Below, in pieces: positions 1,456 to 61,299 of a DNA stretch of 64,000 nucleotides. The stretch is from Cymodocea nodosa. Lineage: Eukaryota > Streptophyta > Magnoliopsida > Alismatales > Cymodoceaceae. The stretch is from NCBI GenBank assembly GCA_036874045.1, contig CM072347.1, positions 3,226,501-3,290,500 of the forward strand, written 5' to 3'. The translations under genes and the position numbers were made by a program. The notes beneath the pieces were generated by a model, which searched no databases, had not been told where the DNA came from, and worked only from the letters and a program-made list of their open reading frames with translations. The stretch's first letter is position 1. Every line of letters starts with the position of its first letter.

Positions 1456-1560
1456 CAGCATTGTTTCACCCTCTCCTGAATCAGTCAGAATGTACCCAAT
1501 AATCAATATGAGCCAGTAAAGTTCTTCCATAGTGCAAGTTACCTCAGTTTGGCTTTTTCC
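1456..1560 (-). CDS. XPO4: XPO4 exon 16 (residues 537-571)
   Basis: It reads [18 protein letters not shown], then [14 protein letters not shown]. The borders are TTGCAG and GTAATT. I found no further exon between here and position 1, so the next one should lie outside the window. Confidence 0.92.
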
Positions 1561-4500
1561 CTGCAAATAAATGAAACAAAATGAGAAGGAAGCCTACGGT
1601 ATATTGTTAAGTTATACATCTAAAATTATAAGATCAAAAAAATTGTGCAGTTCTCGCTTCAAATAAAACACAAGAAAGTCTGCAACTAGTGAGTGGAATA
1701 ATGCTCACATTTATAGCTAAAGTAAGCAAACCTCTTCCCAGGGAATAAAGACATCAAAGATAAATATTTTGTGTTACATATAACCAGGTAGATCCAATAG
1801 ACGAGGCCCCTATCCATGTGAGGAACGTCTATGTGTATGTTGCCTAACCACAACAAATGAGAGATTATTTCCTAGTGTTTAAATTCTTGAACTCCATTTT
1901 ACAATAGAAGAATCATAGCACTACAGAAAGGATTGCCGTCTATGTTGCCCCTATTCATGTGAGGAAGATCTAACTGTATGCTGCCTTACCTCAACAAGTG
2001 AGAAACAATTTCCTAGTGTTTAAATTATTGACCTCCATTTCACAACAGAACAATCCTACCACTATCCAAAAGGCTTGCCATCGATGTGTTACTTATAAAC
2101 GAGTAAAACATAACTAATTCAGAATACAAAATAAGAAGATTATTTTATGAAGTCTTCCAATGATTCAAATCTATGAATGCAGGATAAAATTAGAGAGCTC
2201 ATATACTGAGCGGCATAAACAAGGAACTATTTAAATATTTTAAAGTCCAACCCATACCTTCATCAATAATATGTCCCACATTCCACACCCATCCAACTTC
2301 AATCCCTAATACTATCAAAAAGCCTAGCCATTGAGATTAGGGCAAGAACAAATAAATAAATAACATCCATTACTATGAGAGATTACATATCTACAAATGT
2401 GTCACAAAGATACCCTAATATATATGTGAAGAATTAAGGGATGATCACTTGATTAAGGGGATAAGATGGATTACAAGATGTATAAATAAGACATAGGTAA
2501 ATGGATCATACTCCCCCACAAGCTGGAAAATATATATTAATCATACTCAATTTGTTACAAAGATTATCAAATACACAAGAGTTAACCTTCTAGTAAGAAT
2601 AGCAATTGGCTATTTTGACAAGGAGTATAAGGTGTAAAGACTAGTTCATTCAACCACTAAGTCTTGAATATAATGACAATCTATCTCAAAGTGTTTGGGG
2701 TGCTCATAAAAGGTCATGTTCTTTGCAATATATATGACAATCTGATTATCATAATGCATACTTATAGGCAAATCAACTCCAATCTCGAGTTTGCAAAGAA
2801 GAGATCTATGTCACATCATTTTGCAACTTGTCTCCCTCATTGACTTGTATTCTACTTTAACACTAGAAAGTGAGACAATCATTTTTTTTTTACTCTACCA
2901 AGTGACTAAGTTGCCTCTTACATATGCGACAACACTAGTATATCCTACATCAGAGAATATCTCCACCCTTAAGTGCCCATGAGCCTTGTACACTAATTTT
3001 TTCTTTGATGTGGCCTTTAAATAGGCAAGTACCCATTGTGCTCCAAGCCAATGAACTTATCTCAGATGGTGCATAAACTGACTTAGTAATCTCATAGTTT
3101 ATGTTATATCTAACCTTGTAACAATAAAATATATCAATATTCCGATCAATCATCAATATTGATCAACATTGACTAGCTTCTCTAAGGACTTATCCCAAAA
3201 AGGGGAGTTAGGCTCTATAGGAATAGTCTCAAGCTTACAACCAAGATAACTGATCTCTTCTAGTATATCCATCGCATACTTATGTTGTGACAATATCATT
3301 TTCTCTTTAGAATATGCAAACTCAATTCCAAAGAAATAACCTAGTCTACCCATTCTACCCATGTAACAAAGAGCTGATGAAGATGACTTTTAATATATGC
3401 AAATCCAACTGCATACATAAACAACTAAAATGTCACATCTTATGCCAATTCTCTATACGAAAATGGAGTGATCAATGATGCACTACTGAAAAACCCTCAC
3501 TTAACAAACTCTACTTGAGGCCATAAATACCATTCTTCAAATGGCAAACAGCATTCTCCTCCTAAGCAACATACCTTAGAGGTTATCTATGTGGATTTCT
3601 TTCACCAGATCTCTATAAAAGAAAGCATTTTTGACATCCAACTAATAGAGTTATCAACCAAAGTTAATTACAATAAACAAGAGAATACAAATAGAGTTGA
3701 GTATAGTTATAAGAGAGAATGTCTCAATATAGTCCACACCATAAGTTTGAGTAAAGTCACGAGCAACAAGGCGCACTTTGTATTAGGCCACTAAACCATT
3801 AGAGTTATACTTGACATTAAAGACCCATTTGCAAGAGACCATTTTTGCCCCAACAGAATAAGGTACCAATTCAAGTACCATATGACCCCAAAGTTGCTAC
3901 CTCTTCATCTATAGAATCTTTCTAGTATAGTAATTACAAAGCATCCTAATAGGTTCTTGGGATAGATTCAAAAGAGGCCACAAGAGTAAAACTATGATAG
4001 AAGACATAAAGGTGATCATAAGAAACAAAATGGAAAATAGAGTGATGTATACAAGTTCCTATACCTTTCCATAGGCAATAAAGATGTCCAAGTCATCGAT
4101 GGGTAGACTAGAATCTACATTTAGGGAAGTGGGTGGTTCAACCAAGGAAGGAGATAGGTATTGTCGACATCATTAATACACCTGCAACGGCTAAGAAGTC
4201 CCATCCTATTCATTACTAGTGTCTTGTCCAATAAGATTAGGCAAAAAAACAAAGTCATCACTACCAAACTCAAGAAAAGGATAATCAGTTGGAGGAGCCA
4301 CAAGGATAAGGGTAGGAATAAGAATATTGTACATCAACTCAGAATCTAGTGCTACATTCTCAAAAAAATATGTTGGAGACTCAGAATGTAACATTAGCGA
4401 AAACAATAACATTTTTATGTAGAAGCATGGAAACAATGATACCCTTTTTAAATCCTAGAATAGCCAACAAAGACACATTTAAGGGTTTAAGGTGTCAACT

Positions 4501-7500
4501 TGTCCAACCTAGGGGAAAGATTTGACACAAAGGTAACACACCCAAACACTCTCGAAGGTAGAGCAAAAAATTCAACATTGGGACTATGAACAAAAAGAAG
4601 TGTCTCACCACCAAGAGGACTAAAAGGCATTCGATTGATAAGATAAAATGTTGTAAGAACAACATTAGACGAAAGATGTTTAGGTATCTTTATCTGGAGA
4701 AGAAAAGTTCAAGTGATATCCAAATATGACGATATTTTTGCTCAACAACCTCATTTTACTAAGAGATATGAGAGTAGGCGGTTTGATGAATTATCCTAAG
4801 AGAAGTACAAAACAATTAAAAAGCATGGCCAACAAATATCAAAGCATTATCAATGTGCAAAACTTTAGGAGTACCAAAATACTAACTTTTATTTCAACAA
4901 AAAAATTTTGAACAATACTCAAAATACTTTGACAACTTTTAAGAAGGTACACCAAGACACCCTAGAGTAATTGTCTACAAATACAATGTAATACTGCCAT
5001 CCAGACACAAACATAATACAATTGGGACCCTAGATATCACAATGAATTAACTCAAAAATATTACTATTTAAGCCAAGTTGAAAATGTTAAAAACTAGAAT
5101 GATTATGCTTCCTAAACTAACAAGACCCACAATCAAATAGAAAGATAGAGATCTATGGTAGAGCCAACTTGAGTTTGTCCATAGAAAGATGACCAAGCCA
5201 TACATGCCATGGGAAGGACTCTGTAGTGGACAACAAAGCCACCAAGCCACATGACAGTGCATTACAAACTAGAACATATACCCCACCTCACTTACAACCC
5301 AAACTAATTCTCTACCCCATTTGTAGATTTTGAAAAGTACAATCAAATAGGAAAAAAGCTACAAAACATAAAAGTTGCATAGTAATAACACTAATATATA
5401 AAAGTCATAGGAAATTCAGGAACATAAAAGGTTTGATCAAATCTAACTAGAGACATGGCATAAATGATACCTCATAATCATACATTTATCACTTAGGAGC
5501 CATGTGAGATGAAACTCTCATGCACAATTTTGAACAAGAGAAAAAGGAGATACATTAGTTACATTTATATATGAAAAATCAAGATCCGATGAAATAACGC
5601 AAGGTCTTCCAATGGAAATAACATGGAATAAGTTTTGATCCTACTCATAGGGATTTCGTAAATATTCCATTCCAAAATTCTAAAGTTCAAAATAGGAGTT
5701 ATATGGATCTTTCTTATACAAAGGTCTTAACTAGAAGTATAAGACAACTAGCCCAATTCTTGGAACTTCCTCCTAATGGCTCCATTCCATGCCTTATTTC
5801 ATAGGGAACCTCAAAGTGGCTCTATTTTCATTATATTACCACAACCAAAAACTTGACATAATCAACAGTGACACTCTTACAATTTGGTAGAAACTATAAG
5901 TAGATAAAAAAGTTTGCACTACCTATCATATGATAGGATGCTCCTAAATCTATAATCCAAGAACCACCAACCTTAGTTGTCATGGACAAACTCATACCTA
6001 AGGTAGTAGCTACTGCAACAACAGGTGTGGAGTTAGTAGCCTGTAATTGAATATAGTGTTCGTCATCAACTTGAGAGATCGTCACTCCAACATTATCTAT
6101 TGTGGAACCACTTGTAGAGACACCTATAAAAACATCAGCAATGTCTATAGCCACACGAGCTCAAACGAGACACCCACATTTCACACAACAATGCTCAAGT
6201 TGATGATTTATCCACCCACAATGAGGACAAGGCATGCATTTCTTCCCATCATACCACCTACTTTTGTTATTTCCCCCTAGGCTTTGAACCACTATTCTCT
6301 AACTAACCCTAGACCACCATAGCAATAACTTCCACAGTTTAAGAACTTTGGCCAAGATCTAAAGAACTCAAGAAAAACTATAGATAGATCTAGACTAGTC
6401 TCTCCACCAAGAATTTGTCCTTAAGCTTATGACTTCAAATCAAATTGTAAACCTACGAAAAAAGCTGCAACACAAAGATCATTCTTATACTGCTTAGCAT
6501 ATTAGGATCCATTGTGAACAATTGATAGGCATCCAACTCCTCAAATAGTGACTTCAATGCACCATAATATTCCTATATAATTTTCCCACACATATGTAGA
6601 GAGAAAATCCATTCATAAATCTCATACATCCGAACGATGTTCTTTTGATGATCATATATTTCCCTCAAGGTGTCCCAAATAGCTTTGGTAGGATGAAACA
6701 TCACAACTCCACTTGCCACATTGACTTTTATATTATTCTCCAACCATGTCACTATTGTTGAATCATCACCAAACAAGTCATCATACACATCATCCTTGAC
6801 ATTAAGTAGGGATTTTGTCAAGTGACATCTCTTTCATTGCATAGCTACAAAGGTCTAAAACCTCTTGACTCACATAAGATAATTCTTACCATTCAATTCT
6901 TTGAAGTTCCTGTAAGCTAACGAATGGTAGATTCCTTATATACTATGACACCACAACATGCAACAAATTCACATTCTATAGCAATCCCAGTTCCTACAAG
7001 AATCAACCCTACCAATGACCTACCATAGCCTACACTAGTTTGAAAAAAAGGGATGATGGTCAAAGTCTTGTTGTAGACCACTAGAGGTTCATTATCAAGT
7101 AGTCCTTACATGGACTACTTCACTTGAATGGCCTATTGAACTACTGGCGTCCACTATTGGTAGTCTTATCATGGACTACTTCAGAAAGCAGCCCTAGCAT
7201 GGGTCATAAAGAGAGGAATTACCCTAATGACCTAGCTCATACAATCATTAGGGACAAAGAGAACATGGACACTACCACCCACTACACAACTTCTAAATAG
7301 ATGACTAAAAGATGTCACACAAAGAGTACCACACAAAGTCGTGCAACCAAGAGTGCATATGAATGAGCGACCAATGCACATGCACAGATGAAAGTAGGCT
7401 CACCTAACGTCAAAGAGCTATTGAGCCACCAGTAAAGAACAACAATGGATTAGGGTAAGGGATGAGATGGCTCTAGTACCATGTGAAGAATTAAGGGATG

Positions 7501-10500
7501 ATCACTTAAATAAGGGGATAAAATCGATTACAAGATGTATAAATAAGACATTGGTAAATGGATCCTTAAACAAATCCTTACCAAATTACAAAAACCTCCT
7601 CTCACAATATAGATATCCAATAGTCCAAACAAAGATAGACCTAATAAACCTCTAATAGATATAATAAACTCTCTAAAACTGAAAATAAGCTAATTAAAAA
7701 GAGCAAACTTAGTGCACCCCCTTAATTAGGGTATGAAGAAAGTCTAATTGTATGAGCTTTACCCTCATAAATAAAGAACTTGTTTCCTAAGATTTGAACC
7801 TGTGACCACTAAGTTGTAATGTGCGACCTTACCATTGTGTCAACTCTACCAAGGCTCACCCTCAACAATGACAATAAGCAGATAAATAAGTTAAATATAC
7901 AGAGACTACTACATTTGGAATTTTTCAGAAATGAAAGAGAAATGGGGGAATTGCCGTGATAAAACCAACTATTAAAGAAATTGCTTTGTCCTAAACAAGA
8001 AAATACTTTACTTGAAGAAGAATGGACACTCTTTGTGAGAAGCAAGTAGCAAGCATAGGTATAGTGGCATCAGCTGCTGCCCGTGCAATAAAAGCATACG
8101 AACTTAACCTTTCATCCCTTTCTGTAAAAGAAGAATCAGGAGATCAACATTCCATCAAATAAAAAACCATGCTCCTACTGAAGAATGGAAATTAAAAGAA
8201 CAATACAGAAACAGGAAAAAATAATAAAGCACTAATTATGCATACTTAAAATGGATGCAGTGAAATGGTCAGAATCACAATCATCTTCAAAGGCCGAAGA
8301 AGCAGCAGCTGCATCAGGATTCACAAATCATCACCCTTAATATGATGAAAGAAAAAACCTTAACAGAGCTTAAAAATAATCCACTACTTCTGAAACATAC
8401 AAAAAAAAACTTAAAGACAAGTAGCAGTTACCCTTTAGCTGAGAACCCATAAGAGAATCAAACAATCTTGCACAAATACTTTTTCCCTCGGATGATAGAG
8501 CATTATCACCAAAACTGGTATGCTGTGGAATGTGGAAATCAAGTGGCATTTTTCCAATTCATTATTAAAATCTCGAAAAAAGTACAGACAAGCCTTCTGA
8601 AAATTGTTTTCTAAATATACCACAAAGTGTGGAACATTATTCATTAATCTTACATGTGAAATGTGCATAAATATCATTTTGCATATAAACTCGTTTCTAC
8701 TTTTGACACCACCAAAATGAAAGTTTTTTAAAGAATTTGGAATTTTTTACTGTTTCCAAGTTTTACGGATATGTTCCAACATATTATCAATTTGTAAACA
8801 TGCTGAAGTCCAGTGCAAGGGGCACACACCAATATGGGGTATGAGAAGGGTCAAATTGTACAACGTTCAAACACCATGGTTTCTACTGAGAAATTTACTA
8901 GAAAGAATTTATACAATTTTGGGGAAAATATGATGCATGCAACTCCCATTTCATATGGAAGCATGTGGTACATAGGTTTTATAAGACTCATTATTAAATC
9001 TCCACGAATAAGAAATAACAACAATAATCCAAGCTATGGTCTCACTACGTGAGGTCAACCACATGAATCCTTTTCATCCAACTACTTCTACCTATTGTCA
9101 AGTCTTCAATTAAATTACATAAATTTAAACATTTTCTTACAACTTCTAACCAAGTAGTTTTAGGACCACCTCTACTTTTTTTTAATTTTTTCTACACTAA
9201 TTAAATCTCCTCTTCTAAGTAGGACATTCCTTGAACTCATAAAGATATGAATAAACAACCTAAGCTGATTTTCTCTTTTATCTTATTTTCATTAGGTGCA
9301 ACTCTTACACTACTCCTAATAAAATTGTTTTTAAGCTTATCCCTTAATAGCATTACCACTCATCAATCTAAGCATATGCATCTCAACGTTAACTTTTTGC
9401 ATATAATCATTCTTACTTGATCCCAAACCTCATCCCCTAACTTTTGAAGTCATGTCAAGCATCACACAACTTCAGGTGGTCGTTGGGATGATCGTTGCTT
9501 TCCTATGGAAATAATGGTCAACAAAGGGTGGTGAACCAACTCCTCTACTCTATTACGAGGGGTGAACCTCTCATCAAATCTTCCCACTACAGTGAAAATT
9601 TCAAGGTGGAACAAGGATAAGAAATAAAAGGGTAGAATCTTCTCATCCCAAGCCACCTAATGCTTTATTTATAACATGATATAAAAGTTAGTTATAGCAC
9701 AGAACACACACACCTCAGCCACGTAGGCTCTAACTACCACACAAAAACATGATTTGTATAATTCCTCCCCCCTACTATGGACTTCACCCTTGACATCACA
9801 AACTAGATGTAGGTCTCATGAAGCCTCAAAAGTCAGTACTTGAGCCACCCATGTAGGACACTTGTATCGTAACTCTATAAAATCCTCCCAAATCACTTCG
9901 TCACATCCCTAACCATCCCATTGCACAAGCCAATCTGTTGCAGCCCATTTGTGAAGGTGTGCCATGCAATGATCCAGCACAAGCTGTGGCTTCTAATCAT
10001 TTGGATCTACAGGCCACAGTGGAGGTATTGTTGCTAAGATAAGCATCAGACCAATCTTACATTTCAGTAGCGAGACATGAATCACAGGGTGAACTTGTGA
10101 TATACAAGGTAAATTGAGCTTATAAACCACAACACTGATATCTTAGAGGATCTAGAATGGTCCAAAATAGAAAGCAAACAGATTTTGATAGGAGCGGGCA
10201 GCAAAGGTGGTCTATCAGTATGGGTGAAGCTTTAAGTACACCCAATTGCCCATGCAAAACTCACACTCTATACATTTCTGATCTACAAAGTGCTTCATTT
10301 GTTCTTGGGTTTGTGCAAGCTTGTGGACTAAAATTTTGTCACACACACAAAGTGATCCTCCATGATGATCACCCTGGCTCCTCCAAGCACAAATGGTGGG
10401 AGTGCAGGAGGAGGGCATCCGTAGACAGCTTCAAATGAAGTCATAGCAATTGTTGTGTAGAAGGACAAATTGTAGCAAAATTCTACCCACAACAGCCACG

Positions 10501-43500: not shown

Positions 43501-46500
43501 CACCAACAGATATCAAAGACTTAAGTTATGATTGGTTCGCATGTGGTTATGATTTATGATGCTACTACATGGTTAGTGAATAACATGGAGCGATGATACT
43601 CTCCCCTGTGAAGAAGATGCATACTCTGATTGGCGATGGACATGAGAAAAATATCTCCCATGTCATAGAACTTGAAGAGCAATTCTTCATTCTACTGCAA
43701 GGTGATCAGACCATTCAAGGGTTGTAGACACCTCACATTCCAACAGAGAATAATCTTCATGGACATACAGCCCCAGTCAGTAACCAAAAACTGCCAAACC
43801 CTATTGTTGAAGTTCAAAGCCTGACCCTTCAACGCATAATCCATTGGACTCTAGACATGAAATAATCTCATCAACCCTCCATGTGTCCTGCATTCCTCTA
43901 GGAGGTGACCAAAAAGGGTTGGAGGGTGAATACATCCCATCTGATCCTACACCATTACCTGAAACAGAGTTACAGACACTGCCAACCCATTACTGACCTT
44001 TCACTCCTTGGATTGCCACTATCAAACTACTGAGGCAACATATTCCTTTAAACTAAAGTTGCAGGCCATCATGATTATTGTCTGCAGGCATTGTTGAGAA
44101 GCTGTGGAGGTCATCAAACTCAATGTCTGTGTGTGAAGCTTTCAGTCTAGTCTGTCAAGGTCTGGTCATAAAGCGAGGAGGAAGAAATATGGGTTCCAGT
44201 CACTTGTGGGGGAAGAGGTAGACTTCTGTGGTAAAGGAAGAGGATCATTGATCATGTTCAATTGATGGTGTTGATTCTGATGTTCACAATGTAGTGGAGA
44301 GGTTGTTTGGAGATTTGGGTGAAGAAGAAAGGAATATTGATTGGATTAATCAGAGTCGTCAATTCAATCTCTAATGGATAGGGTAAAGTAGTAACATGTT
44401 ACTATAAAGACCTGGTGCTCTCAGGAAATATGGATAGAAGGGCCAAAGTGTCTAACGGAATAAAGTTGGTTGCAGTTGATTGTCAAAGTTTTGAAAGGGG
44501 AGGTAGGAAAGTGAAAAGGAGGTAAGGTTAAAGGAAGTAACAACTAATTTTCTCTTTTAAAAACATAGAAAAGGATATCAAACAGAATTATGTATAGAAT
44601 TTATTCTATAAGATTGGGAACAAAATTTATATCAATGTATAGATTAAATAATTTAACCCTCCCTGTGGAGGCTAACCTCTACATAGCTGATCCCAAACTT
44701 AGACAGAGGGTTCGTTAGGTATACAACTAATGCTAAAAATTTATCAACTCTTCATGAATATGAATCCTAAAGATAATTCATCAACACCTAACCCTCTTAG
44801 CAATGTGTTATACTGGACCTCAATTATAATGGAAAGAAAACACGAGAGAAGCATTGCATACTTAAAGTATAACATTCTTAAACTAGAGGCTCTACATCAA
44901 AATACCAGGACGCAAATGAAAATAGACTAGGGTTCTCACATTAATGGATAGGTGTGAATAAAGAAATCCAAAACACCAGAATTAGACTAGCAATTTGAAA
45001 TATAAAAACCTTGGCAAGTAAAAGTATGGAATTAGTGAGTATAACAACCAGGAAAATTAACATATCATGCTTGCAAGAAACTAAATGGGTAGACAAAAAA
45101 TTTATGTCAGTTAGGATAGCAGTTTTAAAATATGGTATTCAGAAAAAGATAATCATAAGAATGAAGTTAGAATATTAATTGATAAAAGTTTAAAATACGA
45201 AGTTAGAATTATGATAACTAAGTTTGTGATAGGAAATTAGATAACAAATTAGAGCACATACACCATAAGTAGGTTTAGGAAAAGTAAGTTTAGTTCATGG
45301 TTTACTCATTAGTGAAAAACTTTTTATTCAAGGAGATCTAAATAGTTATATAGGAGAACAAAATAAAGGATATGAAAGAAGCCATGGGAGATTTGATTTT
45401 AGCAATAGAATGAAGAAAGAAATTCAAATTTAAACTTTAATGTAGCTTCCAACATTTTGATAACAAACACTAATTTTAGGAAAAGAGAGGAGCACTTAAT
45501 TACATTGAAAAGAAGTTCAAATATTAGTCAGATAGATTTTTTACTTACTAGAAAAATAGATCAAAGAATGCAAAGAATGTACAAAGATTATAACATTATT
45601 TTGAAAGAAAACTTAACTCCACAACATAGGTTATTCGTGTTAGATGTTAGTATCGAGATTAAGAAGAAAAATATTAAAATACATAAAACCCAAGAATTAA
45701 GTAGTGCAATCTAAAAGAAGGAAAGAAAATGAGATTTAGAGATGACTAGTTAAAAGAAGGAATATGAGAACTAAATGAAGAAATAAATAAACTTTGGAAT
45801 CAAAGGACTACTTATATTAAAAAGATTGTTACAAAAAGTTTAGATCTACTTGTATTAAAAAGACTGGAATGACTTTTATATACTTAAGATCCATAATAAG
45901 TAGCAATAGAGAAATTATAAAAAATGTTATTCATATGATTGAAATATGGTGGATGAAATGAAGAAATACTTCTAGAGTAATATATGATAAGAGAATATCT
46001 TTAAAATTAAAAGGAAAATTTTATAAAATGGTTATTTGTCTAACTATACTTTATGGTTTAGAACGCTGAAATATAAAACATAAGCATCAACAAAAAGTTA
46101 GTATTGCAAATATGCAAATACTTAGATGAGTTGTAATGCTATAAGTTAAAAAATGATTTTATTGGGAATAGAGTAGGGCTTGCAACAATTAAAGATAAGA
46201 TTAAAAAATTAGCTTAGATAGTTTGATCATATCCATAGTAAGCTAAAGAATGCATCAATTAAAAGAAAATAATTAATTAGTTCTGAAAAAACTAAAGGTA
46301 GAAGAAAGTCTAAAACTATTTTGTTAAGAATTGTGAAAAAAGATTTAAATTTATATAATTTAACTGAAGATTTGAACATAGATGGAAATATATGAATGAA
46401 AGAATTTAGGTGACCAACCCCACATAGCAAGATCATAGCACAAGTAGTTGTTGTATAGATTAAATCATTTATACCTCAATAAAGAAACCATCCTTTTCGG

Positions 46501-49500
46501 CTGCAGAAAAATCCATCCTGTGTAAATGTACACGAACAAAAAAAATAAGCAAAATATTCCTTTTTCAAAAAAGATGGGATAAATGCAGACTGGGATTCAC
46601 ATAAAAGAATATAAAAGTAGTCTAGTCTAGAATAACAGTGAACAATGTCCTACTACTATTATGTAAACTTCAGCAGCATGAAACATTTCTCTCAATTTAT
46701 TTCTACCTAACAATCTAACATTTGATCCTCTGTTGAGTTATATGATCTTAAATCCTTTTTAAATATCACTAACCATGTAATTTTCAGTCTTCCACACTTT
46801 TTCTTTGATTCCCTGGATCTTAAATGTTGATGGGATAAGTTCCACGACTTGTGTATTGTGGACTTAGTGAGCTCAATTATTTTTAAGTCAAATGTCAAAG
46901 ATGCAATGGTTGACTAGACTGTACTCTTGGTGTCAAGCTCATGCATTCTCTTGCTATTAGGTGGGCAAGATAGATGGAGCACAACAGAAGAATCCTACTA
47001 GAATGTTGCTATGGACACACACAATCGGCAATCTTCAACTAAAAAATATTATATCTGATGAGCTTTATTGTTGTTCCCTGTCACGACCACGATTTTTACC
47101 AAGCTTCAGTGAGTTTGTTAGTGTAACCCTTTGTAAAGATTGTACACTCTGTGCAGGTCGTTGGTATCCTGTAAGACAAAAAAGATAGTATCATCTCTTC
47201 TGTACCAGAACAGACCCTGTGCCAATCTCCCAATGAAGATTCCGACCAATGTGACAGGGATTGAATAGAGCTCCTTCCAATCTTGTGGTTGTGTTATTTA
47301 TGTTCCCACTATTTCCATTTGGTTAATCACTTGATAAGCCTTTACTTTTGTCTTATTGCATTGTTTTATTCTAATTAATGAATTTCTTTGCTTTACAGTT
47401 AAAAAAAAAATTCCCAATTTTTTCCTTGTTGGATTGCTCACCAGATGGATGACAATATTATTTTTACATTTTATTTATATTAACCTAATATATTTCTCAC
47501 TGCTTAAAGAAATCAAATCTTCCTCTACCACTTTTAGTTCTCATTATTTGCATTTTTTGTTTAATCCAAATGGATTGTTTCTCCCTTCCTAATGGAAACC
47601 TATATTAATCTCCTTTAAAAGGAATCTACCCTGTGAAAAAAATGTTACGAAATAAAAAATTTCATAGTGGTTCACACCACTTTTCACTAGATAAGATCAC
47701 TAGTCAACATGAAAGAAAATGTCAGCTTTCAATATTCATACAACTGAGATGTGATAAGCATACCTATTAAGGTGAGCACCTGCATATTCAGGCATGACTT
47801 GGTCACACCTTGCAGGTTTGCCTCACTTTGTCTTAGTGAGAGGATCTTCTGTCAAATCCATTTAATTATATATATATATACATAAAGATTTTACTTGCAA
47901 ATAAAACTTAAAGGTATATTTTTGATGGAATATTGCTGAATTATACATAATTATTGAGATAAATAATTAGATATGTTACTGAATTATACATAATATTATT
48001 ACACTTCATATTTGATGTTATCTTGGAAGGTTAGACAAGTTGCACATTGGTAGATATATTCACCACTGTACTTATTATGATAATCATTGACTAACAAGCA
48101 TAAAACAGTGTTGTGGTAAACAGGAGACTAGATGAAGAATTGGGTTTATGATGATTTACATTTGTGAATGCAACAACATCAAACAGGTCTTAAAACACAG
48201 AAGCCAGGATAAGGAAAGTGCTTGCGTTAATTCATGTAACTATTTCTCAGACCACACAATCGATCAAAGCCAAATTACAAAACATACCACCCTCTTTTCA
48301 AAAGCTGAGCTGCAACTGCACAAACTTTAGCCCGGACATATGCCTCAGTAGCAGATGAGTGCTTCATGACATAGTGCAGACAGAAGCTACAATTCAAATT
48401 TAAAAAAAAAATCAATACTAGCACATCCAAAGAGGAGAAAAAACTTTTTTTTCTGTTGTGTATTTCTTTGACAGCTACTCAATGATTTTGAGTATCAAAA
48501 GAAGGTAAGAAGTAAATTGTATGTAGGTCAAAACAATAAAAGATTATATAAGAAAACAGAAAATCATATCCACAACAACAAAAAATGAACTGCTGCAAAC
48601 CAATAATGCACATGCTTTATGATACTTACACAATCAAATTTTTCCTGTCCTCGTCAGTAAGAATCACCCATTCCCTTATAGCTGCATCCCTGATGGCTGC
48701 TGCAGCTTGAAATCTTGCATTTGCCAGTTGAGAGTTTTCTGAACAAGTGTGAGAAATATTGGTTTGAATGTTTGAAATGACTTCAATAAAATTTGAAATA
48801 AGCTGTATGACCATGATGAGCCAATAATGCAGCTCATACAATGAGTTAAGTTGGGAATCAATAGCCATATGATAGCAATGAGCACGGCACAATGCATTTT
48901 CTTTAAAAACAAGAGCATGCATTTCCTATCTATTCCAAAGAATAGAGAGGTATGCTTATATATTTAGCCCTTATACCTGGAATCAATTTTTAATCTAAAA
49001 TGAATTCATACTAACCACCCATTCCCTTAATTTCAAGCAAACCTATTTGCAACCTAAATAAACTATCAGACTGAAAAAATGTTCAAGCATTCAAGGGATG
49101 ACCTCGCAAGATAGCTCTATCATCTAATACTCACCACTTCGCAAAATGGTTCTTCAGATATATCACTTCAAAATTAAACAGATGCACTCAAGCAAAATGA
49201 GTGCTTGACATTATTATTAGCATACTTTTTAAGGCACCCAGGCACTAATTACGATATTTATTTTTTTAGTATATAACATATATATATATATATATGATAA
49301 CAATTATGTATAGTTTTGTCTCAATTATTTCCCAAATAAATTCAAATACATAAATAATCCTAAGATAACATCAAATATAAGGTGTAATAATATTAATATA
49401 TATAATTATATATTTCAATAATTATGTGCACTTTAATATTATTCCATCAAAAGATTTATATTTAAGTTTTTTTTACAATAAGAATATTTAAAGCCATTAA

Positions 49501-51285
49501 AACATATATTTAACCGACTATATTAGACAAAAGATCTGATCAATTAAAAACAAGGAGAGGCAAGCAACCAAGGCATGGTCAATTCACACCTTGTTGCCCA
49601 GGGGCACTACCTAGGTCAATTCACACCTTGATGCCCAGGGGCACTACCGAGGTGCTCACCTTAAAAAGCTTGATTATTAGATAATGAAATCTAACTAGTG
49701 TGAGCCTGATTCACGAGAGACCAACTTCTCAGTGCAACCTTTACAATCTGTTGTGCCCATCAAATTAAACATTGACAAATGTTGACAAAATTTCATTGAC
49801 ATATGTCAATTTCTTGAATTATCAAGACTATATAGAAACTGATATCAACATAATATTTTTGTTAACAAATGATTATTTTCTTTGTTAAATTTCCGCTGAT
49901 ATAATTTCAACATACAAAATTTTACCAATATGTGTCATTTTTCGATTTACCAAAGTCCAATGTGAAATCAAAGTTGAATTCCTTGGTTATTGATGCCAAC
50001 AGGGGAGAGGACAGGGCCAGTCAAAGCCCACATTCTTGTATAGGGCAATGACCCTGAATGAAGGGGAAGATGAAGAAGAGGGCAGAGTGCAAAGGAGCCT
50101 TTCAGATGCTACGAACAGGGTTGTTGCTAACCAGCAAGAGATGTTGGTTAGCCCATGCAAAGTGGTGGATGAGCAGTCATTTGGGGAGGATATTTTCTCA
50201 CATTCAGACACACTATTTCAGTCGAGAGAGGAGGATGAGACCCTAAAATGTTCTGAGGATGTATCCAGGGCTACATCACTGGTCATCGATCTGAAGGTGC
50301 AACTCAAAAACTTCAGAAAATCTTGGTCAAACTTGGAGGAAAGACTCAAGTGGGAACTTTAAATTATCAATGAAAGCCATAGAATTTTTCTAATTTTCGA
50401 CAGCTATGGAAGTTATATAGGGTTTTTTTTTTCTTTTTAATATAGATAGACAGAAATTCAATCAAAAAAATACATGGTCCTGTTGCCAAGAATATCCACT
50501 ATTTGTATCTTATGGAAGTAAAAATAGATTGTTAGATTTTAAAAAATTAAAGTCAAGCTTCAATCAGGATATCCCATAATCATCCATGAAAGCATGCTAA
50601 AATAACAAATCACAATGACAAAACATACCGAGTATGTATATGCAAGATTCATAAGGTCGAGGAGATTGGCGAAATGCAGTAATAGCTGCTTCAGCTGCTA
50701 CTGGATTCAAGTTAGTCTGCTCCAAGAAAAGAATACATGAGACATACCAAGAGTGCTGTAGAACATACATACAGGCACAAAACATAGAAAATTTTCGCAA
50801 TAAAAATATATAATCAACGAAAATTAAACATAAAAGCGATCATTTTTTTACTCGTCATAAATTCCTCATCGAAAGAAAGCTACTTCTATTCATCATGTGC
50901 CACAAGCCTGAGGAAGTGTTGAACAACAGGCACTTCCGACCATTAAACATTCGAACAGTTGCTTTATGATCCAAGACAGGTAAATATTCGATTCAAACAT
51001 TCTGAAGGGAAATCAAACAACTAGTCGTTACCCAAAACCTCACTATGAAATCGCCCTATTAACAAAAAACGTCTAGTACATTCAGCAAAACTAAAAAGGT
51101 CGATTACAATTCTTTGATCGACAACGGTATTTCCGATCGTCATTAGGAATACACGAACAATGGAAATCCAACAAAACTCGTCCTGTGGAGTTCACCTGCA
51201 TCATAGAGCAAGCATTCTCGATCGTTTGCATGGTGGAGTGGAGACGGGCCACATTCGGCGCAACTCCGGGCGTTAAACCCTGCAT
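1456..51285 (-). CDS. XPO4: Exportin-4 (XPO4), N-terminal half, 16 exons, continues past the left edge
   Basis: Exportin-4 is an importin-beta/karyopherin receptor made of HEAT-like helical repeats that moves cargo through nuclear pores with Ran-GTP. I joined 16 minus-strand exons: 51285-51196, 50716-50629, 48738-48630, 48386-48288, 46517-46475, 42734-42663, 42580-42485, 41956-41732, 37257-37074, 33221-33110, 33031-32945, 18490-18352, 8522-8432, 8308-8246, 8121-8012, 1560-1456. Every junction is GT/AG and every phase fits, giving 571 codons without a stop. Family signatures include [39 protein letters not shown] and MEELYW. Full-length family members have about 1,100-1,170 residues, so roughly half lies outside the window. 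The start is the first ATG and gives the plant-type N-terminus. Introns range from 78 bp to 14,454 bp. The reading is by recognition of the family, not by alignment. Confidence 0.93.
1807..2085 (-). repeat. Tandem dimer of Au-type SINE-like units
   Basis: Two diverged copies with a 141-bp period start at 1807 and 1948. Read on the minus strand, each resembles the Au SINE of angiosperms: an AAGCCTT-TAGTGGTA-like A-box side, a degenerate GGTTCAA-like B box, AAACACTAGGAAA, then TAGA(C/T)...CCTCACATG. They are more degraded than the copy at 7696-7859. Au assignment is by recognition only. Confidence 0.55.
2425..2508 (-). repeat. 3' LTR of copia 1 (84 bp)
   Basis: On the plus strand the repeat begins TGTGAAGAATTAAGG and ends ATGGATCA, directly before the polypurine tract complement CTCCCCCACA. 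It differs from the partner at 7482-7565 at only a few bases. Confidence 0.8.
5894..6154 (-). pseudogene. copia 1 protease and preceding gag fragment
   Basis: This 86-codon open stretch contains [17 protein letters not shown], the copia aspartic protease region. The catalytic motif normally reads D-S-G-A, and here the Ser is Leu. The piece is a remnant of the pol polyprotein and not a separate gene. Confidence 0.75.
6573..6821 (-). pseudogene. copia 1 gag N-terminal fragment
   Basis: The stretch reads [20 protein letters not shown], then [14 protein letters not shown]. This is the copia-type gag (UBN2/DUF4219-like) domain. It is the 5'-most coding piece of the element on the minus strand. 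Confidence 0.75.
7482..7565 (-). repeat. 5' LTR of copia 1 (84 bp)
   Basis: It is a near copy of 2425-2508. It directly follows the primer-binding-site complement at 7468-7481, which fixes this end exactly. The outer end is GATCC where the partner has GATCA, so the TG terminus has mutated. Confidence 0.8.
7696..7859 (-). repeat. Au SINE, near full length
   Basis: On the minus strand it begins GTGAGCCTTGG and has an A-box-like CAATGGTAAGG and a B-box-like GGTCACAGGTTCAAATC. It then reads GGAAACAAG, GGGTAAAGCTCATACAATTAGA and ends GGTGCACTAAGTTTG-CTC-TTTTT. These blocks in this order are the Au SINE, a tRNA-derived retroposon moved by LINE machinery. It lies next to the 5' LTR of copia 1 in XPO4 intron 15. 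I saw no clear target duplication. Confidence 0.85.
8012..8121 (-). CDS. XPO4: XPO4 exon 15 (residues 500-536)
   Basis: It reads [20 protein letters not shown], then MLATCFSQR, and ends LLQ in phase 0. The borders are TTACAG and GTAAAG. Confidence 0.92.
8246..8308 (-). CDS. XPO4: XPO4 exon 14 (residues 479-499)
   Basis: This 63-nt exon encodes an Ala/Ser stretch, then [16 protein letters not shown]. The acidic low-complexity piece is typical of this point in plant XPO4. The borders are ATGCAG and GTATGC. Confidence 0.87.
   Translation of the reverse strand: MLLLRPLKMIVILTISLHPF
8432..8522 (-). CDS. XPO4: XPO4 exon 13 (residues 449-478)
   Basis: It reads [18 protein letters not shown] and ends SQLK plus one base. 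The preceding intron 12 is 9,829 bp. The borders are TCCACAG and GTAACT. Confidence 0.88.
9060..9440 (-). mobile_element. RTE-type LINE 3' fragment (copy B)
   Basis: The minus strand gives broken RTE C-terminal residues ([16 protein letters not shown], then RENQLRLF) just before the end of the element. The same stretch recurs at 34590-34870 (minus) and 46050-46450 (plus). It lies in XPO4 intron 12, about 540 bp from exon 13. Confidence 0.7.
9690..11660 (-). mobile_element. Ty3-gypsy chromovirus fragment (RNase H, integrase, chromodomain)
   Basis: Reading down the minus strand, I see RNase H ([19 protein letters not shown] near 11580-11520), integrase ([16 protein letters not shown], then [15 protein letters not shown], 10980-10654), and a KMSSTYHPQ block near 10600. 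After these come [17 protein letters not shown]...[10 protein letters not shown] (10418-10215) and chromodomain-like WLVQWDG...EVIWEDF (about 9940-9850). The order and the chromodomain place it among plant chromoviruses. Stops and frameshifts are frequent. No LTR pair was found. Confidence 0.85.
10654..10980 (-). pseudogene. Chromovirus integrase core fragment
   Basis: The 108-codon open stretch holds a zinc-finger tail with [10 protein letters not shown], where the expected second Cys pair is partly lost. The catalytic-core start [13 protein letters not shown] follows, then [18 protein letters not shown]. It is a remnant of pol and lacks the later catalytic acidic residues. Confidence 0.85.
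11800..14184. other. XPO4 intron 12 sequence without a recognised gene
   Basis: Apart from the polypurine tract I can name nothing. Open frames at 13244-13733 and 13930-14241 on the plus strand match no family I know. They lie in AT-rich sequence just before copia 3. Confidence 0.4.
12240..12375 (+). repeat. Polypurine low-complexity tract
   Basis: About 135 bp of nearly pure A/G (GAAAGA-like units, ending GGGAAAGGGGGAGAG) sit between the chromovirus fragment and unannotated intron. An apparent Lys/Glu-rich reading frame here is an effect of composition. Confidence 0.85.
14185..14318 (+). repeat. 5' LTR of copia 3
   Basis: This 134-bp repeat runs TGTAATATTTATATC to TCATCTAACA and is directly followed by the primer-binding site. 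About a tenth of positions differ from the partner, so the insertion is not recent. Confidence 0.85.
15329..16353 (+). mobile_element. Harbinger-like non-autonomous DNA transposon (1,025 bp) inside copia 3
   Basis: The insert begins GGGAGGGTTTGTGT and ends ACACAAACAAACCC, imperfect inverted ends, and is flanked by TTA at 15326-15328 and 16354-16356. Removing it with one TTA restores the copia reading frame across the join (LKKHL / VTKNMGKVKYF). TTA duplications with G-rich ends of this kind are typical of PIF/Harbinger and Tourist elements. No transposase is encoded. The middle is a pyrimidine-rich minisatellite. Confidence 0.82.
15478..15890 (+). repeat. Pyrimidine-rich minisatellite (CGACCTCCC-type units)
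   Basis: About 410 bp of irregular short units with the core (A/G)CGACCTCCC or TGACCTCCC are interspersed with GAGCTCTCTGCAC. Unit length varies from about 10 to 20 bp. It is the cargo of the transposon at 15329-16353. The open frames on the minus strand here come from the repeat. Confidence 0.85.
17282..17415 (+). repeat. 3' LTR of copia 3
   Basis: It is a 134-bp partner of 14185-14318 with the same TG...CA ends. Purine-rich sequence precedes it. Confidence 0.85.
17416..19770. other. Sequence around XPO4 exon 12, no other gene seen
   Basis: Outside exon 12 (18352-18490) this is AT-rich intron. A short proline-coding stretch at 18783-18860 comes from CCTCCCACC-like low complexity. No transposon domain is visible before L1-1. 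Confidence 0.4.
18352..18490 (-). CDS. XPO4: XPO4 exon 12 (residues 402-448)
   Basis: It completes the Arg codon from exon 11 and reads [20 protein letters not shown], then [17 protein letters not shown]. The match continues cleanly across the 14.5-kb intron. Confidence 0.94.
19780..22770 (+). mobile_element. L1 LINE remnant (L1-1), interrupted by copia 5
   Basis: ORF1 remains show a DUF4283-like stretch ([21 protein letters not shown], near 19930) and a zinc knuckle [15 protein letters not shown] near 20455-20500. An endonuclease piece ([20 protein letters not shown]) lies near 20880-20940. After the copia block, 22250-22720 gives the zf-RVT region ([11 protein letters not shown]) and the start of an RNase H domain ([15 protein letters not shown]). 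The reverse-transcriptase middle is missing. It lies in XPO4 intron 11. Confidence 0.75.
20990..22220 (+). mobile_element. Ty1-copia 5' part: LTR, primer site and gag (copia 5)
   Basis: An LTR-like stretch ends TTTCAACA at about 21330, followed by ACTGATATCAAAGC, which resembles the primer-binding site. Gag (UBN2-type) follows in broken frames: [20 protein letters not shown] (21441-21629) and [20 protein letters not shown] through [12 protein letters not shown] (21691-22017). No pol follows and no second LTR was found, so only the 5' end remains within L1-1. Confidence 0.75.
22780..24745 (+). mobile_element. Ty1-copia 5' half: LTR, gag, protease, pre-integrase (copia 4)
   Basis: An LTR-like stretch (about 22790-23200) ends before CATCTGGATAAGAGC, a weak primer-site match. 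Frame-broken pol follows. A degenerate zinc knuckle ([15 protein letters not shown] near 24005) is followed by a protease-region SKASFQTT-like piece near 24165 and the GAG-pre-integrase block WHCKLKHMS near 24550. The element stops near 24740 at integrase, just before L1-2. Confidence 0.7.
27269..27729 (+). pseudogene. L1-2 reverse transcriptase core (inactive)
   Basis: Two adjoining open stretches (27269-27460 and 27484-27729) encode RT motifs: [28 protein letters not shown] and [14 protein letters not shown]. The second catalytic Asp of the YADD/FADD box is Asn and a stop separates the two parts, so no activity is expected. Confidence 0.82.
28351..28443 (-). mobile_element. Short poly(A) retroposon, 93 bp, with 13-bp target duplication
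   Basis: The plus strand shows two T runs, TTAACCTGGTGAAC, then TTCATGGACACTCAA. It is flanked on both sides by ACTAGCAAGCCTT (28338-28350 and 28444-28456). Removing the insert with one flank restores the L1-2 frame (EKLASLEHL). The T runs mean a poly(A) tail on the minus strand, as in LINE-driven retroposition. Confidence 0.85.
29250..29575 (+). pseudogene. L1-2 C-terminal RNase H domain fragment
   Basis: The open stretch has [17 protein letters not shown], then [10 protein letters not shown] and [11 protein letters not shown]. This is the RVT_3-type RNase H carried at the C-terminus of many plant L1 LINEs. It may have been the best-preserved part of L1-2 before copia 2 inserted downstream. 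Confidence 0.8.
29687..29816 (-). repeat. 3' LTR of copia 2
   Basis: On the plus strand it starts TGAACAATGAAGAGG and ends ACTACTAATA next to the polypurine complement. The terminal TG on the minus strand has changed to TA. Confidence 0.87.
29824..31160 (-). pseudogene. copia 2 reverse transcriptase and RNase H remnants
   Basis: The pieces in order on the minus strand are an RT start ([14 protein letters not shown] near 31130), [20 protein letters not shown] (30979-30794), [24 protein letters not shown] sequence (30456-30202), and RNase H with [20 protein letters not shown] (30078-29824). Frames shift between the pieces. Confidence 0.85.
31165..32445 (+). pseudogene. copia 2 gag-protease-integrase remnants, inverted
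   Basis: In plus-strand order there is the end of gag, a zinc knuckle [17 protein letters not shown] near 31390-31440, and a protease/pre-integrase region ([14 protein letters not shown] near 31810). The integrase C-terminal region comes last: [13 protein letters not shown], then [17 protein letters not shown], 32200-32448. It stops three bases before the primer-site complement of the minus-oriented LTR. Confidence 0.85.
32457..32586 (-). repeat. 5' LTR of copia 2
   Basis: It matches 29687-29816 and ends AGTACTAACA on the plus strand (TGTTAGTACT on the minus). The primer-site complement lies directly to its left. Confidence 0.87.
32945..33031 (-). CDS. XPO4: XPO4 exon 11 (residues 373-401)
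   Basis: It reads [16 protein letters not shown], then FDSLLKSF. It is separated from exon 10 by only 78 bp and followed by the 14,454-bp intron 11. The donor is GTGAGT. Confidence 0.93.
33110..33221 (-). CDS. XPO4: XPO4 exon 10 (residues 336-372)
   Basis: It reads [14 protein letters not shown], then TEWIDPP, and ends GRSE. The acceptor is TTGTAG and the donor GTATTA. Confidence 0.92.
34091..34480 (+). repeat. hAT-type MITE, diverged copy
   Basis: It starts CATAGTTATTTAAGGTG, like the inverted end of the copy at 49221, then has an AGGTGCTTGGTGC block. A long AT-rich middle (AATCCTAAGACAACATTAAAAT, ATATATTTCAATAG) lines up with 49320-49450. The right end is lost. It lies in XPO4 intron 9. 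Confidence 0.65.
34590..35850 (-). mobile_element. RTE-type LINE (copy C), minus strand
   Basis: On the minus strand the endonuclease block GDLNGHVG lies near 35815, the linker region at 35389-35069 ([18 protein letters not shown], then [19 protein letters not shown]), and the C-terminal RENQ-R-FGS block near 34740. The RT core between about 35050 and 34880 has been deleted. This is the best-preserved RTE linker in the window. It lies in XPO4 intron 9. Confidence 0.82.
37074..37257 (-). CDS. XPO4: XPO4 exon 9 (residues 275-335)
   Basis: It reads [20 protein letters not shown], then [15 protein letters not shown]. The acceptor is TTATAG and the donor GTACTC. It ends after the first base of an Asp codon. 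Confidence 0.94.
38113..38310 (+). repeat. hAT-type MITE, short diverged copy
   Basis: AATTAAGGCACTCGAGTG...GGGCACTTGGGTGC is followed by AT-rich sequence with ATATAATTATGTGCA. This is the same head-plus-middle arrangement as the copy at 49221. It is truncated on the right. Confidence 0.5.
38775..39085. mobile_element. Foldback element with 61-bp inverted repeats ending in a G/C run
   Basis: Arms 38786-38846 and 39025-39085 are inverted copies with a single mismatch (G-run, CTGGTTTATTTCAATCTT, then ACACAAGCAAAGGTAACC). They are separated by a 178-bp loop. The left outer end is a run of 23 G and the right is 12 C. No ORF and no clear target duplication is seen because the homopolymer hides the ends. 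A MITE is the likeliest explanation. Confidence 0.75.
39249..39872 (+). mobile_element. Probable MITE carrying a 61-bp minisatellite
   Basis: The ends GTTTGTACATCTAAGAAAGT and the complement of AAGTGCACAAATAGAC look like imperfect inverted repeats, each followed inwards by (A)GGAAA-rich sequence. The centre is a C/T-rich minisatellite. The plan matches the element at 15329-16353, but I cannot see a defining target duplication, so the borders are provisional. Confidence 0.5.
39410..39715 (+). repeat. C/T-rich minisatellite, about five 61-bp units
   Basis: Units share the pattern CC-CC(T/A)A(C)CC(A/T)AG(G)CCATCCATTTT-TTG(T)C-TATT, then CAACCTCCCCTCCCA. They are spaced about 61 bp apart, with successive units progressively diverged. 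The proline-rich open frame across them is a by-product. Confidence 0.75.
39873..41731. other. XPO4 intron 8 remainder, nothing recognised besides a SINE-like head
   Basis: This is AT-rich sequence with A and T homopolymers. Frames at 40340-40606 and 41142-41405 are rich in Phe, Leu and Lys from composition and match no family. Confidence 0.4.
40745..40840 (+). repeat. Possible tRNA-derived SINE head
   Basis: GCTCTAATGGTAGTG resembles a polymerase III A box. About 30 bp later GGATGTGAATTTGATGCC resembles a degenerate B box (GGTTCGAATCC). The rest of the unit is not recognisable. It is not a tRNA gene, since no acceptor stem is formed. Confidence 0.35.
41732..41956 (-). CDS. XPO4: XPO4 exon 8 (residues 200-274)
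   Basis: At 225 nt this is the longest exon seen. It reads [17 protein letters not shown], later [12 protein letters not shown], then a serine-rich linker and EHTLVQ. The serine run looks like a flexible loop between helical repeats. Confidence 0.94.
42485..42580 (-). CDS. XPO4: XPO4 exon 7 (residues 168-199)
   Basis: It reads [18 protein letters not shown] and ends QYLK. An 82-bp intron separates it from exon 6. An alternative acceptor 39 bases further upstream would break the family match. Confidence 0.93.
42663..42734 (-). CDS. XPO4: XPO4 exon 6 (residues 144-167)
   Basis: This 72-nt exon reads [17 protein letters not shown], then TFLESL. It fills the family block between the short exon 5 and the FSPSTSS exon. 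The borders are TTGTAG and GTGAGG. Confidence 0.9.
42900..44560 (+). mobile_element. Probable Ty1-copia 5' part (LTR, primer site, degenerate gag)
   Basis: A short LTR-like stretch ends CCTCTCAACA at about 43036 and is followed by TGATATCAGAGTCAGG, a good initiator-tRNA primer-site match. Downstream are low-complexity Pro/His/Cys-coding sequence and scattered gag-like words but no long frame. No second LTR was found. It lies in XPO4 intron 5. Confidence 0.5.
44640..46460 (+). mobile_element. RTE-type LINE (copy D), RT core deleted
   Basis: The endonuclease reads in broken frames from about 44970 ([18 protein letters not shown] near 45080, GDLNSYIG near 45330, [16 protein letters not shown] near 45380, [21 protein letters not shown] 45530-45600). 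After a gap it resumes with [16 protein letters not shown] and [15 protein letters not shown] (46010-46130), ending [20 protein letters not shown] near 46350. The missing piece is the reverse-transcriptase core. Its 3' tail stops 15 bp from XPO4 exon 5. Confidence 0.85.
45457..45714 (+). pseudogene. RTE LINE endonuclease C-terminal fragment
   Basis: The 85-codon open stretch has [20 protein letters not shown], then [10 protein letters not shown] and [10 protein letters not shown]. The last block corresponds to the DHxLV-type end of the endonuclease, with the catalytic His retained as QHRLFV. It is a remnant of copy D. Confidence 0.8.
46475..46517 (-). CDS. XPO4: XPO4 exon 5 (residues 129-143)
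   Basis: This 43-nt exon completes the Trp codon begun in exon 4 and reads [14 protein letters not shown]. The borders are ACACAG and GTATAA. Confidence 0.88.
47759..48020 (-). repeat. hAT-type MITE copy, reverse orientation
   Basis: It begins CATACCTATTAAGGTGAGCACC, the reverse form of the right end of the 49221 copy. Its AT-rich middle is the reverse complement of the shared AACATCAAATAT-AAGTGTAATAAT block. The other end is lost. It lies in XPO4 intron 4. Confidence 0.6.
48288..48386 (-). CDS. XPO4: XPO4 exon 4 (residues 96-128)
   Basis: It reads [17 protein letters not shown], then [11 protein letters not shown] across the junction. The 243-bp intron before it is one of the few short ones. 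Confidence 0.94.
48630..48738 (-). CDS. XPO4: XPO4 exon 3 (residues 60-95)
   Basis: It carries the most recognisable XPO4 block, [15 protein letters not shown] followed by IRDAAIREW. This is the importin-beta N-terminal type helix pair. The acceptor is TTCAG and the donor GTAAGT. Confidence 0.96.
49221..49672 (+). mobile_element. hAT-type MITE, 452 bp, with 8-bp target duplication
   Basis: Terminal inverted repeats CATACTTTTTAAGG and CCTTAAAAAGCTTG match at 12 of 14 bases. The element is flanked by a perfect ATTATTAG on both sides (49213-49220 and 49673-49680). Eight-base duplications and CA...TG ends are typical of hAT elements. The middle is AT-rich and non-coding. The right part holds a 41-bp tandem duplication (TCAATTCACACCTTG...CCCAGGGGCACTACC). 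It lies in XPO4 intron 2. Confidence 0.88.
50036..50362 (+). other. Unassigned 108-codon open frame in XPO4 intron 2, antisense
   Basis: The frame starts [20 protein letters not shown] and ends in a charged, helix-prone stretch ([20 protein letters not shown]). I do not recognise a family. Two shorter frames overlap it. It is slightly more GC-rich than the flanking intron, which suits a fragment captured from elsewhere, but nothing shows that it is expressed. Confidence 0.25.
50629..50716 (-). CDS. XPO4: XPO4 exon 2 (residues 31-59)
   Basis: It reads [12 protein letters not shown], then [11 protein letters not shown]. The acceptor is GAGCAG and the donor GTATGT. The exon ends after the first base of a Glu codon that exon 3 completes. 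Confidence 0.92.
51196..51285 (-). CDS. XPO4: XPO4 exon 1 (residues 1-30)
   Basis: The exon begins with the ATG at 51285 and reads [10 protein letters not shown] onward to CSMMQ. It ends in phase 0 at a GTGAAC donor. The sequence just upstream on the minus strand is GC-richer than the introns and contains a trinucleotide repeat. Confidence 0.9.
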
Positions 51286-60798: not shown

Positions 60799-61299
60799 AT
60801 GCCCCCGAAGTTCGACCCGTCCCAGGTTGTCGACGTCTATGTCCGCGTCACCGGCGGAGAGGTTGGTGCCGCCAGCTCCCTTGCCCCGAAGATTGGTCCC
60901 CTCGGTCTCTCTCCCAAGAAGATCGGAGAGGACATCGCCAAGGAGACGGCCAAGGACTGGAAGGGCCTTCGCGTGACGGTGAAGCTCACCGTCCAGAACC
61001 GACAGGCGAAGGTTTCGGTTGTGCCCTCCGCATCCGCGCTTGTCATCAAGGCGTTGAAGGAACCCGCGAGGGACAGGAAGAAAACGAAGAATATCAAACA
61101 CACTGGAAACATCTCGCTGGACGACGTTGTGGAGATCGCAAGGGTGATGAGGCCTAGATCAATGTCGAAGGACCTGGTTGGAACCGTGAAGGAGATCTTA
61201 GGGACGTGCGTGTCTGTCGGGTGCACGGTGGATGGGAAGGATCCAAAGGACTTGCAGGCGGAGATTTCCGACGGCGATGTCGAGGTTCCTACTGCTTAA
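60799..61299 (+). CDS. RPL12: 60S ribosomal protein L12 (uL11), complete and intronless
   Basis: This is a cytosolic large-subunit protein that binds the GTPase-associated region of 25S rRNA at the base of the P-stalk, where elongation factors dock. The 166-residue protein starts [20 protein letters not shown] and has the family's usual length. The N-terminal domain includes [15 protein letters not shown] (about residues 33-47). The C-terminal rRNA-binding domain includes [19 protein letters not shown] and ends in [18 protein letters not shown] plus an acidic tail. The ATG is the first in the leader, and overlapping frames on both strands are shadows. The coding region is far more GC-rich than its surroundings, with many C/G third positions. 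No intron is needed to give full length. The gene looks functional. Confidence 0.98.

Follow-up and report, generated by a model that had tools for sequence, protein, structure and literature searches.

The window, a 64,000-nucleotide stretch (C21:3226501-3290500) of a 374.6-Mb genome in 28 contigs, holds the N-terminal half of a gene that, judged from its sequence, codes for exportin-4 (XPO4). We consider it very probable that XPO4 is a single-copy protein-coding gene with 32 intact exons, and that about half of its introns have grown, at least partly by retrotransposons, to give a gene of 121 kb.

Structure and identity of the XPO4 gene

The N-terminal half of XPO4 is formed by 16 exons on the minus strand, which run from position 51285 to position 1456 of the window and span 49,830 bp. 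Exon 1 was delimited by its GT donor and reading frame.

51196..51285, minus strand: exon 1, with the ATG at 51285-51283
50629..50716, minus strand: exon 2
48630..48738, minus strand: exon 3
48288..48386, minus strand: exon 4
46475..46517, minus strand: exon 5
42663..42734, minus strand: exon 6
42485..42580, minus strand: exon 7
41732..41956, minus strand: exon 8
37074..37257, minus strand: exon 9
33110..33221, minus strand: exon 10
32945..33031, minus strand: exon 11
18352..18490, minus strand: exon 12
8432..8522, minus strand: exon 13
8246..8308, minus strand: exon 14, acidic-loop region of low conservation, with the least certain borders
8012..8121, minus strand: exon 15
1456..1560, minus strand: exon 16, followed by a 17,152-bp intron that runs off the window

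These exons contain 1,713 coding nucleotides, which make up 49% of the 3,489-nucleotide coding sequence including the stop codon. A first-pass annotation of the window had described 16 in-phase exons, free of stops and frameshifts, with 1.7 kb of coding sequence spread over 49.8 kb; its end points and counts are correct, as is its statement that only half of the protein lies in the window. It had also proposed a search to the left for the C-terminal exons. Within the 200 kb examined to the left of the window, 16 more exons (exons 17-32) are located in order and on the same strand at C21:3156954-3210803, and complete the gene. The whole model encodes 1,162 residues with no internal stop. Measured from the ATG through the stop codon, the gene occupies 120,832 bp (C21:3156954-3277785), in line with the earlier expectation that the full gene may exceed 80-100 kb. 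Neither the window nor the 200 kb to its left contains any N.

The exons were located by tblastn, with an Arabidopsis XPO4 sequence as probe. GT-AG ends are present at all 31 introns (15 of 15 junctions in the window), a count that is partly a matter of construction, since exon borders were set by hand at frame-keeping GT-AG sites. That usable sites of this kind are present at every border is a real result. Phases match and the reading frame is open throughout; the borders of exons 14-15, where the sequence is poorly conserved, are the least certain. The same probe gave 27 ungapped tblastn matches of at least 28 bits in the real 122-kb region, and none at that score in five dinucleotide-preserving shuffles of it. 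Therefore, the exon chain is not a product of chance.

The spliced protein was compared with the PDB using phmmer, a search in which the Arabidopsis probe plays no part. Its best match is mouse exportin-4 (5dlq_B), with 283.5 bits and an E-value of 3.3e-83, and covers residues 12-247, 309-576 and 613-1161 as three separate stretches. The sole other chain at E<=1 is CRM1, with 21.1 bits, and this difference bears out the identification as exportin-4. The protein is 55% identical to the Arabidopsis XPO4 probe over 1,170 columns. Among Pfam domains, CRM1_C scores over its cut-off (34.1 bits) and IBN_N under it (17.5 bits, cut-off 21).

Ten residues of mouse Xpo4 touch Ran or eIF5A, and E390, D470, E537 and S631 form part of the hypusine pocket (PMC4912631). 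The mouse numbering is shifted by a 20-residue loop deletion, and with this shift all ten mouse letters agreed. Three of the ten residues are identical in the plant protein (E401, E537 and S631), and D395, D396 and E465 are replaced acidic for acidic. The remaining E390, E462, L466 and D470, from the pocket and the acidic loop, are unmatched, and the alignment is gapped there. Of the four pocket residues, E537 and S631 are conserved; E390 falls opposite H and D470 opposite S, in a part of the alignment that is gapped and rich in loops. The protein probably functions in the RanGTP-dependent export of eIF5A.

XPO4 was the only locus recovered convincingly from the genome. All 15 matches to the N-terminal half of the protein and 16 of the 18 matches to the C-terminal half are located at this locus. 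The other two C-terminal matches are weak (E 0.13 and 0.58, 34-37% identity). A second, compact XPO4 locus, which the first-pass annotation had named, if it were the expressed one, as a finding that would speak against its reading, was sought genome-wide with both protein halves; scored exon by exon, the best candidates included no second copy.

Introns and their transposon content

The XPO4 introns total 117,343 bp and fall into two size classes, with 16 introns of at most 543 bp and 15 of at least 1,770 bp, nine of which exceed 5 kb. The longest is intron 16, whose 17,152 bp cross the left edge of the window. The sizes given earlier for six introns, 3.7-14.5 kb, are all right: 3,740 bp for intron 5, 4,474 bp for intron 8, 3,852 bp for intron 9, 14,454 bp for intron 11, 9,829 bp for intron 12 and 6,451 bp for intron 15. 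Large introns occur throughout the gene, the first being intron 2 and the last intron 30, and show no 5' bias; intron 1 has 479 bp. Remnants of mobile elements in the window are as follows, with Pfam values in brackets.

18491..32944, minus strand: intron 11, 14,454 bp, the longest wholly inside the window, with copia-type and other retroelement fragments
20029..20436, plus strand: DUF4283 fragment in intron 11 (2.5e-14)
21661..22014, plus strand: copia gag fragment in intron 11 (Retrotran_gag_2, 3.2e-14)
29204..29572, plus strand: RVT_3 fragment in intron 11 (3.1e-11)
29684..32584, minus strand: copia-type remnant in intron 11, with 131-bp repeats 95% alike and 2,640 bp apart
30797-30985: RVT_2 reverse-transcriptase fragment between the repeats of this remnant
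32158..32445, plus strand: SH3_retrovirus fragment in intron 11 (9.1e-17)
14178..17415, plus strand: LTR retrotransposon remnant in intron 12, with ~135-bp repeats 89% alike, TG..CA ends and a GAATT target-site duplication
11521..11745, minus strand: weak RT_RNaseH_2 fragment in intron 12, under the curated cut-off (1.6e-5)
5897..6160, minus strand: weak Pol_BBD fragment in intron 15, under the curated cut-off (0.0064)
3156..3389, minus strand: weak RVT_2 fragment in intron 15, under the curated cut-off (6.3e-4)

The LTR element of intron 12 is just 3.2 kb long. Its left repeat is followed by what we take to be a Met-tRNA-like primer site. The one ORF inside it that was compared with Pfam (14294-14638) has no match, and the element is perhaps non-autonomous. 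In intron 11, no target-site duplication was found for the copia-type remnant, and the SH3_retrovirus fragment lies within this remnant on the opposite strand, so the stretch is composite. The DUF4283 fragment is presumably LINE-associated.

Introns 11, 16, 17 and 25 all hold copia RVT_2 sequence that passes the curated cut-off, in intron 17 only barely (32.3 against 31.6 bits), and intron 16 also holds SH3_retrovirus and RVT_3. Self-comparison listed 29 repeat pairs of at least 120 bp, five of which resemble LTR pairs. Their repeats are 95% alike in intron 11, 93% in intron 29, 89% in intron 12, and 84% and 82% in two pairs of intron 18, which points to elements of different age. We suggest, from these differing divergences, that the introns grew stepwise. 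Apart from the pair in intron 12, no LTR-like pair has a duplication adjoining TG..CA ends; candidate duplications of five or six bases are present at the intron-29 pair and one intron-18 pair. Introns 5, 9, 12 and 16 have diverged dispersed repeats in common.

Firm domain or LTR-pair evidence is present in seven of the 15 introns of at least 1,770 bp (11, 12, 16, 17, 18, 25 and 29), a set that reflects sampling of intron content and leaves out intron 15 with its weak matches, introns 5 and 9 with dispersed repeats, and introns 2, 4, 8, 19 and 30. The elements observed are fragmentary or degraded. Of 28 ORF pieces sent to Pfam, two lie outside the gene, one being a ribosomal protein ORF and the other an ORF past the 3' end. 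The 26 intronic pieces, a part of all intronic ORFs, gave no sign of a nested host gene: they matched retroelement domains, in some cases below the cut-off, or had no match, as was so for one ORF of intron 2. The one exception, a sub-threshold Gliadin match (E 0.026), was taken as chance. The earlier description of six introns as full of transposons thus holds for intron 11 by its domains and for intron 12 by its LTR element, is limited to sub-cut-off matches in intron 15 and to dispersed repeats in introns 5 and 9, and finds nothing to support it in intron 8.

XPO4 is not located in a gene desert. On its upstream side, ~9.5 kb from the start codon and in divergent orientation, lies a ribosomal protein ORF, presumably the gene for 60S ribosomal protein L12.

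60799-61299, plus strand: 166-codon single-exon ORF with Ribosomal_L11_N and Ribosomal_L11 domains (Pfam)

The nearest downstream gene seen, a Methyltransf_29 gene with ORFs within ~4.6 kb, lies ~14 kb past the XPO4 stop. Further downstream are SAD_SRA (one 694-codon ORF), Psb28 and Methyltransf_16 ORFs, interspersed with ORFs of transposons.

The length of XPO4 was compared with that of other loci of the same genome. With 104 genomic bp per residue, it is first among 14 exportin and callose-synthase loci, a convenience sample and not a genome-wide ranking. The values that follow are 67, 52 (39 without one weak outer match), 38, 26, then 22 and 20 for the XPO1 genes, down to 3 at two loci where the domain is uninterrupted. 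The XPO1 genes were found with an Arabidopsis XPO1A sequence as the probe. The one on C16 spans 21.9 kb (residues 3-1075), the one on C21 at least 23.2 kb (residues 33-1075), and XPO4 is five times longer than either. At eleven callose-synthase loci, the portion of the PF02364 domain (819 positions) that was matched extends over 2.3-44.7 kb; these spans are lower bounds for the genes, from 55 of 76 candidates scored, with exon matches grouped by place. XPO4 tops a continuum and is not isolated, as several genes of the genome have large introns. The word extreme, applied to it in the first-pass annotation, is too strong: XPO4 ranks first and exceeds XPO1 fivefold, but it belongs to this continuum, and plant genes or introns of comparable length are published.

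Two by-products of these searches are recorded here. The callose-synthase loci C6:15889007-15901915 and C6:15962057-15974965 are exactly 73,050 bp apart and have identical scores for the listed exons, except for the largest (173.2 and 172.3 bits); either they arose by tandem duplication very recently, or the assembly contains this stretch twice. At C9:4621825-4622094 lies a piece similar to the C-terminal domain of XPO1 but with four internal stops, which may be a fragment of a pseudogene or include intron sequence translated along with the exon.

Transcription through long introns and alternative explanations

About half of the XPO4 introns appear to have grown at least partly by insertion and decay of retrotransposons, and insertions may account for most of the growth. 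The gene is probably expressed and under selective constraint. To produce its mRNA, the cell would have to transcribe 121 kb, and the ordinary spliceosome would have to remove all 31 GT-AG introns. In plants, DNA and H3K9 methylation often silences transposon-bearing introns, and the IBM2/ASI1 and EDM2 machinery helps transcription to pass through them; when it is missing, transcripts end early. In rice, heterochromatic introns occur in more than 10% of genes, and polyadenylation takes place prematurely inside them when OsIBM2 is lost (PMC7145194). In Arabidopsis, transcription downstream of intronic transposons can drop when these lose their methylation (PMC4417168). XPO4 has in common with the genes described there transposon-bearing introns in a coding gene. 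By analogy, XPO4 may be read through like the heterochromatic-intron genes of rice and Arabidopsis, and as far as the letters tell, nothing in its exons or splice sites prevents this.

The same observations could arise in other ways. XPO4 might be intact in sequence and recently silenced, its transcripts ending early in long introns. Introns of 10-17 kb do carry retrotransposon remnants, and premature polyadenylation in such introns upon failure of the read-through machinery is documented (PMC7145194; PMC4417168). Yet 3,489 nucleotides contain no stop, frameshift or broken splice site, while the LTR-like pairs differ by 5-18%; had any such insertion silenced XPO4, lesions would be expected by now. 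No other XPO4 copy was found that could take over, and we regard silencing as very unlikely. Least probable of all, to the point of being barely credible, is that the length of the gene is an assembly artefact in which transposon-rich sequence from elsewhere was placed between blocks of exons. The round contig sizes of 12,865,000 and 16,077,500 may hint at fixed-bin scaffolding, but a wrong join would have to preserve 32 of 32 exons in order, on one strand and one contig with matching phases, and a sequence free of N across the window and the 200 kb to its left.

Selection could also have kept the introns long, for regulatory elements or for a response to chromatin state. The first rank of XPO4 in bp per residue among the 14 loci and the apparent compactness of its Methyltransf_29 and SAD_SRA neighbours, judged from their ORFs, agree with this idea. 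It is opposed by the decayed remnants of mixed type and orientation, by the lack of nested host genes among the intronic ORFs compared with Pfam (a part of all), and by the grapevine data, in which intron size is unrelated to gene function (PMC3058033); we judge it unlikely, if a shade less so than silencing. Retention of full coding capacity in a gene enlarged partly by retrotransposons thus remains our preferred reading. We also speculate that XPO4 has become chromatin-sensitive, its intron load acting as a regulatory switch on full-length mRNA and hence on nuclear export of eIF5A, because a receptor without a second copy depends on transcription through introns that total ~117 kb and bear transposons over much of their length. 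This too is improbable, albeit slightly more plausible than selection for long introns. XPO4 mRNA would then drop where intronic silencing or IBM2/ASI1 weakens, as in stress, pollen or endosperm.

Comparison with known long-intron genes

If XPO4 is expressed, it shows that a transcription unit of 121 kb, in a genome of 375 Mb, is tolerated for a housekeeping transport receptor. With its clean single-copy set of 32 exons, the gene allows intron growth to be traced from one exon to the next, and it is a natural test case for how long introns that bear transposons are transcribed and spliced. It is also a hard test for gene annotators, as gene models break apart at long introns. Grapevine had 99 EST clusters with matches to several successive annotated genes each (PMC3058033). 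A potato survey reports that XPO1 and XPO4 are absent (PMC7037939). Loss of XPO1 in potato would be surprising. We infer that these absences may partly be an artefact of gene models split at long introns.

Genes with expanded introns are already known in plants. Grapevine has 2,697 introns of 3-100 kb with no bias in gene function (PMC3058033); in 39 compared genes the large introns are mostly 5', whereas XPO4 has them all along the gene, up to intron 30. Of 2,184 conserved orthologs in Chloranthus, 876 are longer than 20 kb; LTRs are present in the long introns, and the long-intron genes are expressed (PMC8626473). Sapria has 23 genes with introns of more than 100 kb, and 640 of the 1,000 genes most expressed in its flower have introns of at least 1 kb (PMC10246380). 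The Chloranthus and Sapria passages describe genome-wide trends and do not name XPO4, and the literature consulted gives no length for a plant XPO4 gene. XPO4 lies at the long end of this pattern and is ordinary in kind.
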